DNA of 42,093 nucleotides from an uncultured bacterium (GTDB taxonomy: Bacteria; Nitrospirota; Thermodesulfovibrionia; Thermodesulfovibrionales; Thermodesulfovibrionaceae), in contig CALLBR010000018.1 of assembly GCA_937998865.1 (NCBI GenBank), positions 1-42,093 on the forward strand, in the 5' to 3' direction. Of the stretch, positions 5,797 to 15,885 are shown in pieces (position 1 is the first letter of the stretch; every line of letters begins with the position of its first letter). The position numbers were made by a program, and so were the translations under genes. The notes under the pieces were generated by a model. It ran no database searches, was not told the origin of the DNA, and saw only the letters and a program-made list of their open reading frames with translations.

Positions 5797-6555
5797 TCAC
5801 TTACATTCTGAGGTTTCAAAGAGAGGACAAAATCCCTCTTCCTTTTCCTTAATAGCATTTTTTGCCAGAAGGTATCCTTTAATGTTTTCTGCTCCAATAA
5901 TAAATTTTTTCTCAGAACCTTCGTTACAGTATAAAACAGGTACTGACTTTATGTTTAAAGCCTTCAAGAGTCCTGAAATTTTATCTGCTTCTATTTTGTG
6001 AACTGGGATTGACATTTGCTCACAAAACTGGATTACCTCTTTGCAGTGAGGGCAGTCTTTTGAGTAGACAAGAACATAATTTTGTTTGGCTGAGGGGAAG
6101 TCTGATATGTGAGGATTTACCAAATAGGTTATTAAAAATAGAGATGCAAAACAAAAAAAAGCAAAGACAAGCTCCTTACGGCCCATTACAAACCTTAAAA
6201 GGGAAGACAAAAGAAGAATTGCAAACACCACTAAGCAAAAAATACAAAATTCCCTTATAACGAAAGCTTGAAAGGATAAAAGATATCCCTCAGTAGACAA
6301 AGCAGATATCAAAATTAAAGAGTGTAAGAGATCAAACTTTTTGGTAAGAGAAAAAAACAATAAAGTGGCAAATAATCCCATACCAATTAAAAGTAAGAGA
6401 ATATCTCCGCCTTTTACAAAACTTTCTACAATCCTGCATCCCTCTGTTTGACAAATGCTTTTTCCGAAAAATTTAAGCATAAATTCAAGAAAGACAAGCA
6501 CAAAACCAATCAAATAGAGAAAAGTTAGAATTTTTGGCATTTTAAGGAATTTCAT
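5797..6555 (-). CDS. VKOR-family disulfide oxidase with thioredoxin-like tail
   Basis: Integral membrane protein of 252 residues in the bacterial vitamin K epoxide reductase family, which replaces DsbB as the quinone-linked oxidant for protein disulfide formation. It has four to five helices, the shuttle cysteine pair in the first loop (ICQTEGC, Cys35 and Cys40) and the active CxxC at a helix end (FCIFC, Cys104 and Cys107). A C-terminal thioredoxin/glutaredoxin-like domain carries CPHC (Cys168, Cys171) and SVPVLY with a likely cis-proline. This fusion lets the electron path from substrate to quinone run in one chain. The start at 6555 is supported by a -10 box 6 bases away. Confidence 0.88.
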   Translation of the reverse strand: MKFLKMPKILTFLYLIGFVLVFLEFMLKFFGKSICQTEGCRIVESFVKGGDILLLLIGMGLFATLLFFSLTKKFDLLHSLILISALSTEGYLLSFQAFVIREFCIFCLVVFAILLLSSLLRFVMGRKELVFAFFCFASLFLITYLVNPHISDFPSAKQNYVLVYSKDCPHCKEVIQFCEQMSIPVHKIEADKISGLLKALNIKSVPVLYCNEGSEKKFIIGAENIKGYLLAKNAIKEKEEGFCPLFETSECK

Positions 6556-6938: not shown

Positions 6939-7655
6939 ATGAAAGTGCTGTGTTTTTTTATTTTATTTATAATCTTTTTTATAGGACTTGGTAATTCCTA
7001 CTGTCAAGACAAGGACTATGATTTTACAAGAATTTCTATTACTTTGGAGGAAAAAAAAGAGGTTGTGCCTGATATCCTAAAGATGACCCTTTCAGTAAAC
7101 AGTTTTACTTTGAAAGAGGTTGATTCTATAAATATGCTTGGTGCCTTAGACAAGGCTGTAAGAGCCCTAAATCTCAAATATAGCGGTGGAAAATATGCAG
7201 TTGAAAAAAATTGTTGGTGGGAAAAGGATAGAAGGAGATGCTCTGGTTATAAGGGGAATATAAATTACTCTTTTGAACTTAAAGAAGGAGCAGAACAAAA
7301 TAAAATCTTTGATCTTTTGGATAAATTTAAAGAACAATATGGTGAGAAAATAAACTATTCGGTGTCAAATACTACATGGGTTATTTCAGATAAAAAAGCG
7401 GAAGAAATAGAAATGCAACTTAAGCTTTTAATTATTGATAAGGGAATGAATTTTGCAAAAAAAGTTGAAGAAAAAATGGGGAAAAAATGTACAATTTCAA
7501 ACATTAGTTATGATATTAAAAGACCCTTTTGGGATTCTCCTGTTTTTTTAAAATCAGCACATACAGTGGAAAAATTCTCTGTAGAGGCTCCTGAGCCTAA
7601 AAGGGAAGATATTGAAATCTCTGTAAAGGCTAATCTAAGTCTCATATGCAAATAA
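6939..7655 (+). CDS. secreted SIMPL-domain (DUF541) protein
   Basis: A 238-residue protein that starts with a signal peptide (about 1-22, hydrophobic core FFILFIIFFIGL). The mature part resembles the SIMPL/YggE family: an N-terminal strand region (TRISITLEEKKEVVPDILKMTLSV), a helix with regularly spaced Ala and Lys, a central pair of Cys in a charged loop (KNCWWEKDRRRC), and a terminal strand (EDIEISVKANLSLICK). SIMPL proteins are periplasmic or outer-membrane-linked and their exact role is unsettled. The call rests on overall pattern and not on a catalytic motif. The start has GGAGG at 6 bases. It precedes the cysteine-rich peptide gene, which has its own promoter. Confidence 0.65.
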   Translation: MKVLCFFILFIIFFIGLGNSYCQDKDYDFTRISITLEEKKEVVPDILKMTLSVNSFTLKEVDSINMLGALDKAVRALNLKYSGGKYAVEKNCWWEKDRRRCSGYKGNINYSFELKEGAEQNKIFDLLDKFKEQYGEKINYSVSNTTWVISDKKAEEIEMQLKLLIIDKGMNFAKKVEEKMGKKCTISNISYDIKRPFWDSPVFLKSAHTVEKFSVEAPEPKREDIEISVKANLSLICK

Positions 7656-7710: not shown

Positions 7711-7775
7711 TGTTATAATTTGTATACTTATGAGTATAAATAGATTTCAATCTATAGAGAAAAATTTAAGGAGGA
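7711..7775 (+). promoter_or_regulatory. promoter, short leader hairpin and RBS of Cys-rich peptide gene
   Basis: TGTTATAAT (TATAAT at 7714-7719) is an extended -10. The leader contains a perfect small inverted repeat, ATAGAT-TTCA-ATCTAT (7740-7755), and then AAGGAGG at about 7769-7775. This gene therefore has a conventional leader, in contrast to the leaderless genes nearby. Confidence 0.55.
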
Positions 7776-7782
7776 TTAGAAA

Positions 7783-8064
7783 ATGAAGAGATTATCATTA
7801 ATCACTCTTTTAGTGAGCCTTGTTTTTTTATTTACCTCTACAAGTGGATCAAATATGAATATCTATCAAGGATCAAATTCCTGCAGCATGCCTTTTGTAA
7901 AGGATATTTTATATGCATCTTCAGTAAATTGTTCTGAATGGAGTATTCAACTAAATGGTTGTTACGAGAGAGTTTGCTGTTGTGACAGCAGTGGTAGGCA
8001 TTTCTGTGAAAGATGTTGTCCAGATAAGGAGGGAAAATGTATTCCCTCAAAAGTTAGCTGTTAA
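7783..8064 (+). CDS. small secreted protein with 11 cysteines
   Basis: A 93-residue protein with a signal peptide (Lys-Arg, then LITLLVSLVFLF) and a mature part of about 70 residues holding 11 Cys at 34, 50, 60, 65, 66, 67, 75, 78, 79, 86 and 93. Clusters include RVCCCD and RCCPDKEGKC. No family is recognised. The spacing suggests a knot of disulfides or a metal-binding peptide outside the cytoplasm. The gene has a strong extended -10, a clear AAGGAGG, and a likely terminator after it, so it looks independently and well expressed. The nearby VKOR protein could supply disulfides. The odd number of Cys leaves one free for a metal, a partner or dimer formation. Function unknown. Confidence 0.7.
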   Translation: MKRLSLITLLVSLVFLFTSTSGSNMNIYQGSNSCSMPFVKDILYASSVNCSEWSIQLNGCYERVCCCDSSGRHFCERCCPDKEGKCIPSKVSC

Positions 8065-8085: not shown

Positions 8086-8134
8086 AAATAATCAAAATAA
8101 TTGAAGTATTGAGTGATTATTTTCTTTTTATTTT
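8086..8134 (+). terminator. possible AT-rich terminator after Cys-rich peptide
   Basis: AAATAATCA (8086-8094) pairs with TGATTATTT (8114-8122) around a 19-base loop that can itself pair partly. The stem is followed by a T-rich run (TTCTTTTTATTTT). The stem is poor in G and C, so the call is tentative. Confidence 0.4.
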
Positions 8135-8211: not shown

Positions 8212-8892
8212 TTGAATATGATATTGTCACCAGTCATAGAGGTTCTATTAAGACAGATTTATTTCACCGGCGTTCAAGCTTTATCAATTGTCATTTTCTC
8301 AGGATTATTCATAGGTCTTATAATAGTCCTTCAAATTATGTCTATAACTGGTTCAGGTTCAAGTAGCATAATGGGTAAGATACTTTTGGTTATTGTTTTA
8401 AAAGAAATAGGTCCACTTTTTACAGCCCTTATAATTCTTACGAGAAGTGGTTCTGCAATAGTTACAGAACTTGCTACTATGAAATTAGGTAGAGAAATTT
8501 ATTATATTGAAGCTATGGGTATTAAGCCAGAAGTATATCTTATAAAACCTCGTCTATACGGGGTTACCTTTTCTGCTTTGGTGCTATGTGTTTATTTTCA
8601 GCTTGCAGCCCTCTTTGGGGGAGTCTTTATAGCAAGTTTTATGACAGGTGTCTCCTTTTCAGAAAACATGAATGCTATTTTTGATCAATTTTATCTGAAA
8701 GATGTGGCAATAGCTTTTTTGAAATCTTTGATGTTCGGTTTTACTGTCTCTTTAATTTGTATATGGCACGGTATTTCTGTGAAAAAAAGTACCACTGAGA
8801 TTCCTCAGAGAACTACAAAAGCTCTAACAGGAGGAATATTCTCTATTTTTTTAATTGATGTTATAATTGACTTCATTACAAAAATGATTTAA
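8212..8892 (+). CDS. mlaE: MlaE-type MCE transporter permease
   Basis: Inner-membrane permease of the MlaE/YrbE family, part of an MCE system that moves phospholipids between membranes. The core matches the family: LLRQIYFTGVQALSIVIFSG at the start, then KEIGPLFTALIILTRSGSAI and the EIYYIEAMGI coupling region. At 226 residues it lacks roughly the first 30 residues of typical members. The annotated TTG at 8212 and the ATG at 8218 are both possible starts. The ATG has a TATGAT box about 13 bases upstream. The next gene starts directly after its stop, so they are translationally coupled. Confidence 0.88.
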   Translation: MNMILSPVIEVLLRQIYFTGVQALSIVIFSGLFIGLIIVLQIMSITGSGSSSIMGKILLVIVLKEIGPLFTALIILTRSGSAIVTELATMKLGREIYYIEAMGIKPEVYLIKPRLYGVTFSALVLCVYFQLAALFGGVFIASFMTGVSFSENMNAIFDQFYLKDVAIAFLKSLMFGFTVSLICIWHGISVKKSTTEIPQRTTKALTGGIFSIFLIDVIIDFITKMI

Positions 8893-9504
8893 ATGATTAG
8901 TGCTATAGGAATAACAGGAGATTTAATCAGAGATAAGATGAATTTTAACATTCAAAAAGGACAGAAGGCATTTTTTGTTTTTGAAGAAGAAGCACAGGGA
9001 GAGGAATTTTTGGATTTGCTAATAGGGATGAAAAGTCCAAAGAGCGGAGAGCTCTTTTTTATGGGCCAAAATCTTAGACATATAAGGAAAGACAAACTTT
9101 TTGAAATAAGAAAAAAAATTGCCATTGTTTTTAAAACAGGCGGTTTGATAAATAACATAAGAACATTAGAAAATATTCTTCTTCCAGCTCTCTATCATAG
9201 AATTGCAGATAAAGAAAATCTATATAGAGAAGCAATAAAACTCTTAGAAACCTTTGAATTCAAAGGAGACTACATGTGTAAGATAGAGGAACTAACTAAT
9301 TTAGAGAGGAGAATTATAGCTTTAGTGAGAGGTTTACTAATTAAACCAGAGATTATGATTTTAGAATATCCCTTTCAGGGAATTAGTGAAGAGCAAAGGG
9401 AATGGCTTTTGAGTAAGATTGAAAAAATAAGCAAGAATCTAACTCTTATCAGTATTTTAAGCTCCCAGAGGGAATATCATTTTTTTAAAGGCAAGGTGAA
9501 TTGA
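8893..9504 (+). CDS. MlaF-like ABC subunit lacking all nucleotide-binding motifs
   Basis: A 203-residue protein in the mlaF position and with the length profile of an ABC ATPase domain. However, the Walker A region reads FEEEAQGEEF (about 30-39) in place of GxSGxGKST. The Q-loop Gln is Lys (VFKTGG, about 79-84). The signature reads ELTNLERR in place of LSGGQ. Walker B ends ILEYP in place of LDEP (Glu158, Tyr159), and the switch His is gone (ILSSQ). The flanking ABC framework (KSPKSGELFFMGQNL, TLENILLPALYH, RGLLIKPEIMIL) is preserved, as is the reading frame. It probably binds MlaE structurally but cannot hydrolyse ATP in the usual way. It abuts mlaE and is 3 bases from mlaD. Confidence 0.82.
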   Translation: MISAIGITGDLIRDKMNFNIQKGQKAFFVFEEEAQGEEFLDLLIGMKSPKSGELFFMGQNLRHIRKDKLFEIRKKIAIVFKTGGLINNIRTLENILLPALYHRIADKENLYREAIKLLETFEFKGDYMCKIEELTNLERRIIALVRGLLIKPEIMILEYPFQGISEEQREWLLSKIEKISKNLTLISILSSQREYHFFKGKVN

Positions 9505-9507
9505 AAA

Positions 9508-10395
9508 ATGGAAATCAAACAAAAAGATCCACGCTTTATATTTCTTAGAGGAAAAATTGTTATTTTTATTATAGTTGCCTTAGCAGGTGCTTTAGCATTT
9601 CTCTATTTTGCAGGAAAGCAAAGAGGTTTATTTACAAAAACAGAGAATTTTTATTGTGTTGTTTCTAAGGCTACGGGAGTTTATACAGGTATGTCCATTA
9701 GATTATCAGGCTTTAAAATAGGAAGAGTCCAGAATATGGAACTAATGGATAATGGGTTTGTAAGAATAACTCTTTCTGTTGAGGATAAACACACTAAATG
9801 GTTTAGAGAAGGAACAGTGGCAATTCTTACTAAGGAGGGATTCATAGGTGAATCCTACATCGAAATCTTACCAGGACAAGGTGCCCTCATAAAACCTAAT
9901 CAAACAATTAAATTTTTTAGGCAATCAGGCATTGAAGAGATTGCTGCAGAGCTTAAAGGTGAAATATCTGAGATTTTGAAAGGAATAAAAGAGACTATAA
10001 ACTATGTTAATGAGCCTCAAGGTGACATCAAGAAAAGCATTCATAATATAGAGAAAATATCCAGAAATTTAATAGAAACAACCAATAAACTTAATCTCTT
10101 ACTTGAGGATATGAAGGATAAAACTCCTTCTATCCTTGCTAAATCAGAAAATACAATTGAAGAACTCACGGAACTTATTAAATCCCTTCAAAATGTTGCC
10201 AAGCAGTTAAATGCATTAACCACAAATTTCAATGAGATAACAAAGAAGGATTTAACTTTAATAATTGAGCAAACAAAAAGAAGCATGGAAGATTTGGATG
10301 AAATCCTAAAGAGCATAAAGGGACTTTGGCCCATAAGAGAGGGGATCAAAAAGCATGAGATAAAACCTTTGGAGGCAGATAGTTATGAGAAATAG
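9508..10395 (+). CDS. mlaD: MlaD-type MCE-domain protein
   Basis: Membrane-anchored periplasmic lipid-binding subunit of 295 residues. A single N-terminal helix (about 16-34, IVIFIIVALAGALAFLYF) is followed by one MCE domain at about 45-125, with SGFKIGRVQNMEL and TKEGFIGESYIEILPG as landmarks. A long helical, coiled-coil tail follows, with many Ile, Leu, Lys and Glu heptads. MCE proteins form hexameric rings with a hydrophobic pore, and long tails can extend the channel across the periplasm. It is in one operon with mlaE and the mlaF-like gene, and the next gene overlaps it by 11 bases. Confidence 0.9.
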   Translation: MEIKQKDPRFIFLRGKIVIFIIVALAGALAFLYFAGKQRGLFTKTENFYCVVSKATGVYTGMSIRLSGFKIGRVQNMELMDNGFVRITLSVEDKHTKWFREGTVAILTKEGFIGESYIEILPGQGALIKPNQTIKFFRQSGIEEIAAELKGEISEILKGIKETINYVNEPQGDIKKSIHNIEKISRNLIETTNKLNLLLEDMKDKTPSILAKSENTIEELTELIKSLQNVAKQLNALTTNFNEITKKDLTLIIEQTKRSMEDLDEILKSIKGLWPIREGIKKHEIKPLEADSYEK

Positions 10396-11221
10396 AAAAA
10401 AATTGCTTTTTTTATTTCTTTTGTTTTTACTTCTAATCCTTCAAGGATGCTACAGAGCACCAATGGAAGAACCTTATAGAGTAAAGGAAATTGAGAGTTT
10501 AATAAAAAGAGCAAAGGTAGCCTCTGAAAAAGGCAATTTTAAAATGGCACTGAGTCTTTATGAAGAAGCTTTGAAAAAATCTCGCATAATTCAAGATGAT
10601 AATTCTACTGTAGTGATTCTTCTTAGCTTATCAAGGATTTATACTTCCTTAGATAAAATTGATTACGCTAAAAAATTTCTTAGTTCTGCCGAGGAGTTAT
10701 CAAAGAAAACATATCTACCAGAAGGTCTATCTGAAGAAATAATTTTTGAAAAGGCAAGAATAGGATTTTTACTAAATGAAAACTCTGAAGCTTTATTACA
10801 TAAATTGATTTATTCAGAATCTCCATACATGAGAATAAAATCTTTAAATCTTTTAGCACGATTCAAGATGAGAGAAGGGGCTAATGAAGAAGCTGAAGAG
10901 CTTCTTAATAAAGCATTGTCTATGAATAATGAAATTTCAAAAATTGAGCAAGCTAATACTCTTAGGCTTCTTGGAGAACTTAATACGAAAAAGAATAAAA
11001 ATAAAGCATTGATTTATTTATTAAGAGCTTTGTCAATTGATAAAGAGCTTGCCTTGCCAGAAAAAATAGCCTTAGATATGGAGATTCTTGCAAGACTTTA
11101 CAGAGATATGGAGGATAAAGAAAAGGCAAAGGATTATTTTTTAAGAGCTTTTGAAATATGGAAGTGCCTTGAAAGAGAGGAAAATCAGATAAGAATCATG
11201 AGAGAGTTAGAAATTTTATGA
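10385..11221 (+). CDS. TPR-repeat lipoprotein of the MCE operon
   Basis: A 278-residue lipoprotein: a basic N-terminus, a long hydrophobic stretch of Leu and Phe, and the lipobox LQGC with Cys22. The mature part consists of tetratricopeptide-like helical repeats (for example AKVASEKGNFKMALSLYEEA, AEELLNKALSMNNEISK, KAKDYFLRAFEIWKCLE). Its start overlaps mlaD by 11 bases, so it is part of the MCE operon. It may be the outer-membrane or periplasmic partner of the transporter, in the place taken elsewhere by MlaA, MlaC or an ABC-auxiliary lipoprotein. It is not homologous to those by eye, so that role is inference. Confidence 0.75.
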   Translation: MRNRKKLLFLFLLFLLLILQGCYRAPMEEPYRVKEIESLIKRAKVASEKGNFKMALSLYEEALKKSRIIQDDNSTVVILLSLSRIYTSLDKIDYAKKFLSSAEELSKKTYLPEGLSEEIIFEKARIGFLLNENSEALLHKLIYSESPYMRIKSLNLLARFKMREGANEEAEELLNKALSMNNEISKIEQANTLRLLGELNTKKNKNKALIYLLRALSIDKELALPEKIALDMEILARLYRDMEDKEKAKDYFLRAFEIWKCLEREENQIRIMRELEIL

Positions 11222-14932: not shown

Positions 14933-14965
14933 TTTTAAAATTGTCAAAATTTTACAATTTTAAAA
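14933..14965. promoter_or_regulatory. 12-bp inverted repeat upstream of ppaC
   Basis: TTTTAAAATTGT (14933-14944) and ACAATTTTAAAA (14954-14965) are perfect 12-base complements around the 9-base spacer CAAAATTTT. TTGACT at 14921-14926 just upstream could be a -35, and TACAAT (14953-14958) overlaps the right arm. The element lies 20 bases before the ppaC start and ahead of its ribosome-binding site (AGGAGG, 14975-14980). It could be an operator over the promoter or a leader hairpin. Confidence 0.55.
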
Positions 14966-14985
14966 AAACTCTTTAGGAGGTTAAA

Positions 14986-15885
14986 ATGAGCGATATTTAT
15001 GTAATCGGTCATAAGGCACCAGACACAGACACAGTTTGTTCTGCAATTGTTTATGCAGGTATTAAGGGTTACAAAGCAGCTACTGCCGGACCTATCAATG
15101 AAGAAACAGAATTTGCACTTAAGCAGTTTGGCGTATCTGCTCCAGAAGTGCTTGAAAATGCAACAGGGAAAACACTTGTTTTGGTTGATCATAATGAAGA
15201 AAAACAGAGAGTTGATGGAGCAGAAAAGATTCTGGCAGTAATTGATCATCATAAGATGAATTTCAATTATCCAGATCCAATTTTTGTTCATATTGAGCCA
15301 GTGGGAAGTACTGCTACAGTTATCGCAAAAATGTTCCCTTCAGAAGTAAAGGCAAATAAAACTTATGCAGGATTGCTTTTATCTGCTATTCTTTCTGATA
15401 CTGTTATATTTAAATCTCCCACAACTACCGAGGAGGATAAAAAGATTGCTCAAGAATTGGCTGCAGTGGCAGGAATTTCTGATATAACAAAATATGGTGT
15501 TGAACTCAAAAAAGCTAAAGCAAGTATAAAAGGAAAACCAATTGCTGATGTTGTTCATGTAGATTTCAAAGACTATGATTTCAAAGGATTAAAAGTAGGA
15601 ATTGGTCAAACTGAAGTGGTTGACATAGAAGAGGTTTATGAGCGAAAGGACGAGTTCGTTAAGTACCTTACAGATTTAAAAGCAAGTAAAGGGTATGATA
15701 TGGTTATTTTTATGGCTACAGATATTGTTAAAGAGGGCACAGAACTTTTCTATGCAGGAGACGCAGCAAAACTAGAAAAAGCCTTTAATGTAAAGATTTC
15801 AGGACCTTCTGTATGGCTTCCAGGAGTACTATCTCGTAAAAAACAAGTTGCACCACCTGTTGAAAAGGTATACTTAGAAGGTTAA
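14986..15885 (+). CDS. ppaC: manganese-dependent (family II) inorganic pyrophosphatase
   Basis: Cytoplasmic DHH-superfamily pyrophosphatase that hydrolyses PPi to phosphate, pulling biosynthetic reactions forward. The 299 residues include the metal-binding motifs HKAPDTD (His9, Asp13, Asp15), LVDHNE (Asp68, His69) and DHHK (Asp87, His88, His89), and the C-terminal DHHA2 domain ends with SRKKQ. No regulatory CBS insert is present. A good AGGAGG precedes the ATG. The GC-rich third-codon choices (for example ggc, gca) and strong RBS suggest high expression. Confidence 0.95.
   Translation: MSDIYVIGHKAPDTDTVCSAIVYAGIKGYKAATAGPINEETEFALKQFGVSAPEVLENATGKTLVLVDHNEEKQRVDGAEKILAVIDHHKMNFNYPDPIFVHIEPVGSTATVIAKMFPSEVKANKTYAGLLLSAILSDTVIFKSPTTTEEDKKIAQELAAVAGISDITKYGVELKKAKASIKGKPIADVVHVDFKDYDFKGLKVGIGQTEVVDIEEVYERKDEFVKYLTDLKASKGYDMVIFMATDIVKEGTELFYAGDAAKLEKAFNVKISGPSVWLPGVLSRKKQVAPPVEKVYLEG

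Follow-up and report, generated by a model that had tools for sequence, protein, structure and literature searches.

The locus and its genes

The window, that is, the whole stretch of 42,093 nucleotides analysed, carries on its forward strand a small protein-coding gene whose product, cysteine-rich and predicted to be exported, has 93 aa, and which lies between a SIMPL-like gene and a gene for an MlaE-family permease (Table 1). The open reading frame with 11 cysteines described by the first-pass annotation was matched exactly, and its mature part, put there at about 70 residues with 16% cysteine, amounted to 70 aa and 15.7% when cleavage was placed near residue 23. Of the CCC and the two CC clusters reported there, the triplet was found together with a single CC pair (residues 78-79). 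Likewise, the annotated signal peptide was borne out, as judged by eye, in all 12 homologues described below, which share the layout of a Sec-exported protein, namely a basic, charged n-region, a hydrophobic h-region and, ahead of the cleavage site, residues that are mostly small. Among the 1,736 ORFs of randomised windows (n = 60), none had 10 cysteines within 47 residues, the maximum being 8.

In the window, the gene is probably transcribed from its own promoter, since a conserved extended -10 element and a strong ribosome-binding site precede it. Of the strong promoter previously annotated, the extended -10 element stood, with AAAATGTTATAAT upstream of the G009 orthologue representing a conserved -10 region within diverged flanking DNA, but a good -35 hexamer was absent and a consensus scan for two hexamers called no promoter at 7711-7719. 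The ribosome-binding site was upheld. In contrast, the leader hairpin found no support, with a fold z of -0.09 against shuffles and no conservation, and the terminator fared no better: the hairpin between the gene and mlaE had a fold z of -0.05 against shuffles, the terminator scan made no call, and the T-run, but not the hairpin, was kept in G009. A search of Rfam returned no RNA element. Nor is the gene a stand-alone unit throughout the genus, since in several relatives it lies inside tight operons.

Regarding the neighbouring genes, the MlaF and MlaD labels come from gene order and sequence, and the TPR match from a relative's homologue. The SIMPL-like gene upstream, whose homologue in G002 scored over the cut-off (E 7e-10), is common in the genus, peptide-negative genomes included. 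The VKOR-thioredoxin fusion, encoded in 16/16 genomes of the genus, is likely the source of periplasmic disulfides; as a peptide-specific partner it was rejected because of its presence in all of them. Elsewhere in the window, an ORF with 13 cysteines (14944-15291, reverse strand) runs antisense to a gene at 14986-15885 and is probably a reading-frame artefact.

Table 1. Features of the peptide gene and its surroundings in the window
Feature	Position	Strand	Basis and remarks
VKOR-thioredoxin fusion	5797..6555	-	weak VKOR and glutaredoxin/thioredoxin matches, below cut-offs
SIMPL (DUF541)-like exported protein gene, upstream	6939..7655	+	SIMPL E 0.0014, below cut-off
Extended -10 TGT-TATAAT (TGTTATAAT)	7711..7719	+	sequence and conservation in G009; no recognisable -35
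Ribosome-binding site AAGGAGG	7768..7774	+	8 nt before ATG; AATTTAAGGAGGATTA conserved in G009 orthologue
Gene for 93-aa cysteine-rich protein (export predicted)	7783..8064	+	homologues in 10/16 genus genomes, purifying selection
Sec signal peptide (predicted), residues 1-23	7783..7851	+	KR, hydrophobic 5-17, SGS cleavage region; by eye
Linker, residues 24-46, fast-evolving, optional 11th cysteine Cys34	7852..7920	+	pLDDT, dN/dS, alignment
Core, residues 47-93, conserved	7921..8061	+	10 Cys, two ERxCCxDxxG-like units, beta strands
AT-rich 9-bp hairpin and T-run in gap between gene and mlaE	8086..8129	+	possible weak terminator (putative)
MlaE-family permease gene	8212..8892	+	PF02405 E 1.3e-51; kept downstream in 6/12 copies
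MlaF-like ATPase, MlaD-like protein, TPR lipoprotein	8893..11221	+	shared gene clusters cl4, cl5, cl2; same order in relatives

A family restricted to one genus

A profile search in relatives, which had been proposed together with the annotation, found homologues: a total of 12 genes matched the core profile in 10 of the 16 Thermodesulfovibrio genomes (nine of the 11 near-complete ones), each positive genome having only one or two copies. Outside the genus, no credible homologue was detected in 230 genomes of the class and 395 of the phylum, and a scan of about 85,000 species, in which exact short peptide words were searched first, gave matches only within the Thermodesulfovibrio group. The order- and class-level matches with E-values of 0.004-10 were sampled and inspected, and were rejected for being short, in other frames or devoid of the cysteine pattern. 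Moreover, Pfam, NCBIfam and PHROG gave sub-threshold matches of single members only, the virus and plasmid collections gave no match to the peptide, PADLOC made no call on it, and the PDB offered no credible relative by sequence or by profile, in agreement with the earlier statement that no family is recognised. In the literature searched, no paper combined Thermodesulfovibrio with cysteine-rich, and titles and abstracts mentioned nothing on this peptide family. The peptide is therefore a family of its own, confined to the genus within the reach of the collections, and its cysteine framework corresponds to none of those compared below; its broad kind, small secreted cysteine-rich proteins, is already known. 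On the VKOR tree its presence is scattered, requiring five changes of which only two are forced by well-supported branches, a pattern that sets no order of gains and losses.

Conservation and selection

The conserved unit within the genus is the C-terminal core of about 47 residues, while the signal peptide and the linker drift. In the core alignment of the 12 genes, 24 of 51 columns were invariant, including nine of the ten cysteines, with the signature W-x2-Q-x2-GCYERVCCCD-x2-G-x3-CERCCPD-x2-GKC-x6-C. Across residues 47-93 of the window peptide the cysteine spacing is C-x9-C-x4-CCC-x7-C-x2-CC-x6-C-x6-C, the last residue of the protein being a cysteine, and the core as a whole has a cysteine content of 21% and a net charge of 0 to +3. 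The invariant residues beside the cysteines (W, Q, Y, E, R, D and K) suggest a conserved surface.

The core is under strong purifying selection, with dN/dS values of approximately 0.14 between the window and G009a (dN 0.037, dS 0.257) and 0.04 between G002 and G009b (dN 0.037, dS 0.87). For the signal peptide and linker, the corresponding values were about 0.73 and 0.44, and their rate of amino-acid change was some four to five times that of the core. The linker cysteine is missing in G005 and G012, and this 11th cysteine is dispensable; one of the long forms has no first core cysteine but retains a single cysteine in the linker. Furthermore, the number of cysteines in the mature form is odd (11) in most copies, and a histidine beside a cysteine cluster is usually conserved, being lost in G001 and G014b.

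Predicted structure and comparison with known families

AlphaFold2 models built from six sequences reached a mean pLDDT of 89.5 for the best model of the core alone (84-89.5 over all five models), and in the mature form the blocks from residue 31 on had pLDDT values of 80-92. The linker stayed below 50 over most of its length and is predicted to be disordered. In the best core model, strands were predicted at core residues 15-20, 28-32 and 43-45, with short bridges before them, so the models describe the core as all-beta, a plain beta meander. An internal repeat (YERVCCCDxxGx / CERCCPDxxGK), whose units were picked by eye, scored higher than any of 2,000 shuffles, and the two ERxCCxDxxG-like units would fit two successive predicted hairpins.

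With the core and mature models, Foldseek found no match at E <= 0.001 (best E 0.59), and VIA reached Z-scores of at most 3.6 with the mature form and 4.9 with the isolated core. The latter belonged to a Pur-alpha repeat (5fgp_A, rmsd 2.5 over 45 residues), which, like PC4-like domains, resembles the modelled core as an antiparallel beta meander of about 45 residues; however, with Z below 5, tied with propeller blades and kinases, and identity of at most 17%, the likeness concerns a common arrangement only. Since these matches were level with unrelated beta sheets, no assignment to a known fold was made.

Several families of small cysteine-rich proteins were also compared. Granulin/epithelin modules (PF00396) are small, secreted and cysteine-rich and have CC pairs as well as beta hairpins that follow one another; the peptide, with its predicted export and predicted hairpins, resembles them in these respects. 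However, the 12-cysteine granulin spacing, CX5-6CX5CCX8CCX6CCX5CCX4CX5-6C, and its half-pattern were absent in 12/12 members, no Pfam match was obtained up to E 10 in the 12 members, and no solved relative was found. The TIL domain (PF01826), with its ten cysteines in about 50-60 residues, offered a lead only through a GKC-x-P-x(3)-C-like C-terminal end. TIL disulfides join C1-C7, C2-C6, C3-C5, C4-C10 and C8-C9. The three adjacent cysteines and the middle CxxCC of the peptide depart from the sequence order of cysteines in TIL domains; no Pfam match appeared up to E 10 in the 12 members, and the match of the tail was discounted, the pattern being loose and permissive. Bacterial metallothioneins share the many cysteines and the short length, but the peptide is predicted to be exported and beta-structured and has invariant aromatic residues, and the metallothionein models of Pfam and NCBIfam gave no match. 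Finally, a knottin-like cysteine spacing, searched in a loose form, was absent in 12/12 members.

Gene neighbourhoods in relatives

The genes beside the peptide gene encode mostly exported or membrane proteins. In six of the 12 copies, the set of mlaE, ATPase, MlaD-like and TPR lipoprotein genes lies 3' of the peptide gene, directly or a few genes on, a count in which the copy at a contig end in G009 shows the first two genes only and the second G009 copy has no called ATPase gene. An MlaE of the window type was found in seven of the 16 genomes, every one of them peptide-positive, and is missing from two near-complete peptide-positive genomes; among near-complete genomes it thus occurred in 7/9 positive versus 0/2 negative ones, numbers too small for significance. 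The linkage is tight in G005, where the peptide gene ends 15 bp upstream of mlaE, and in G002, where it overlaps the next gene (DUF4384).

In G002, G014 and the second G009 copy, the peptide gene sits inside a cassette with a GNA1162/CsgG-like lipoprotein of 758-766 aa that carries TPR and NosD-type repeats. There, DUF4282 (in two of the three) is followed by DUF4384 and a transglutaminase-like protein, and a caspase-domain protein is encoded nearby; the stretch between the DUF4384 and transglutaminase genes consists of N in L031, L028 and L027, which leaves the cassette incompletely read. MlaE/F/D-like genes also belong to such cassettes, and TPR-CHAT genes may take the place of caspase genes in the vicinity. 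In the tests made on the window's genome, CsgG-like, DUF4384 and caspase genes were not found, and the caspase was rejected as an obligatory partner for being absent from three near-complete peptide-positive genomes. No genes for metal transport or metal regulators were recognised beside the peptide gene in the window or the relatives. In G012 (L034:3284-3532), an 82-aa exported protein with six cysteines and no Pfam match is encoded 5 bp upstream of the peptide gene.

Modular forms

The core also occurs fused to another module. In the long forms of G001 and G014 it follows an N-module of about 80 residues, which is a stand-alone gene in G013, G010, G004 and G005. Directly 3' of the stand-alone gene in G013, a different exported peptide with 12 cysteines is encoded (L067:2331-2603; CWNCRPDNFCRN...CCKCKEK), upstream of TPR-PDZ and WD40-caspase genes and without a Pfam match. 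In G005, the gene directly downstream encodes a 140-aa exported protein with eight cysteines (L121:1064-1486, reverse strand) that has no sequence kinship with the window peptide. Since some genomes join the N-module to the core and others have it alone before different cysteine-rich peptides, these arrangements suggest that cysteine-rich mini-domains are exchanged on shared modules. Additionally, small proteins with the C-terminal end IPTPTPKI(E/D)K, likewise exported, were found alone (L120, L119 and L067:2019-2270), and G001 and G014 have a related module joined to the core.

Interpretation

Of the natures first proposed for the peptide (a disulfide knot, a metal trap or a surface peptide), a disulfide-braced fold would fit best, because of the predicted beta core, the ten conserved cysteines and the occurrence of VKOR-thioredoxin throughout the genus. 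In the mechanism proposed here, the mini-protein would be exported by Sec, its C-terminal core would form a small beta meander, held together by as many as five disulfides within the molecule that VKOR-thioredoxin would help to make in the periplasm, and the variable linker would display this core, which, among changing envelope proteins, would be a binding module of ligand or adaptor type and not an enzyme. We infer export, oxidation and binding, and regard it as evenly balanced whether the peptide is, as a whole, such a modular disulfide-braced binding module of a variable envelope system. A contrary point for the binding role is that no constant partner gene accompanies the peptide across the positive genomes, and for the disulfide-braced fold, that the odd number of cysteines in most copies would leave one thiol over.

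The same odd number would suit a trap for metals or thiols, namely a periplasmic peptide that resembles metallothioneins or binds Fe-S/Zn and takes up metals abundant in hot sulfidic water, as would the cysteine-dense core with its CCC and CxxCC clusters and the usually conserved histidine. Nevertheless, this alternative is unlikely: the predicted beta fold and the invariant Trp and Tyr are unlike metallothioneins, the histidine is dispensed with in two copies, adjoining metal transport or regulator genes were not recognised, and paired CxxC sites of the kind seen in rubredoxin or zinc knuckles are missing. Somewhat less probable still is a structural surface component, in which the optional linker cysteine would join copies or partners by intermolecular disulfides into an envelope or extracellular layer. 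The linker predicted to be disordered, with its spare cysteine in most copies, and the CsgG/GNA1162-like lipoprotein and transglutaminase-like neighbours in relatives are consistent with it, but G005 and G012 lack this cysteine, such neighbours were not found where the window's genome was tested for them, and no genome has more than two of the genes. The scattered, genus-restricted presence and the domain swapping with other cysteine-rich peptides recall a secreted, bacteriocin-like antagonist of relatives that swaps its active domain. We consider this improbable, as selection on the core is purifying and not diversifying, no constant small immunity gene adjoins, no bacteriocin family appeared above any cut-off and the core is not strongly cationic. 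Finally, a functionless chance ORF, which the small size and the lack of a database family might evoke, has practically no likelihood left: it is refuted by conservation, the core dN/dS lies far below 1, the gene is within operons in relatives and the randomised windows held nothing comparable.

The disulfide-braced mini-protein might belong to a wider modular envelope system of Thermodesulfovibrio, in which non-homologous cysteine-rich mini-domains would be interchangeable heads on shared leader or linker modules, together with periplasmic caspase/CHAT peptidases, the CsgG-like lipoprotein and MlaE transporters, a proposal that is speculative and rather doubtful. If true, this system would be a bacterial counterpart of the lineage-specific secreted disulfide-rich peptides of eukaryotes. 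Among thermophiles that are strict anaerobes and produce sulfide, an exported mini-protein with an adjacent cysteine triplet and the potential for five disulfides is unfamiliar. A domain so conserved within a genus and absent outside it raises the questions of how such a fold originates and how, in a hot and reducing habitat, it is oxidized. The size of the peptide suits synthesis, NMR and mass spectrometry, and it could provide a heat-stable disulfide scaffold. Its gene also directs attention to islands of varying content that encode exported proteins of the caspase, CHAT, SIMPL and DUF4384 kinds. Related islands (L070, L067, L028 and L035) showed a variable content of TPR-CHAT, WD40-caspase, TPR-PDZ, SIMPL, DUF4384 and DUF2330-like exported proteins, as well as others labelled FecR- and CHASE2-like by sequence appearance only.
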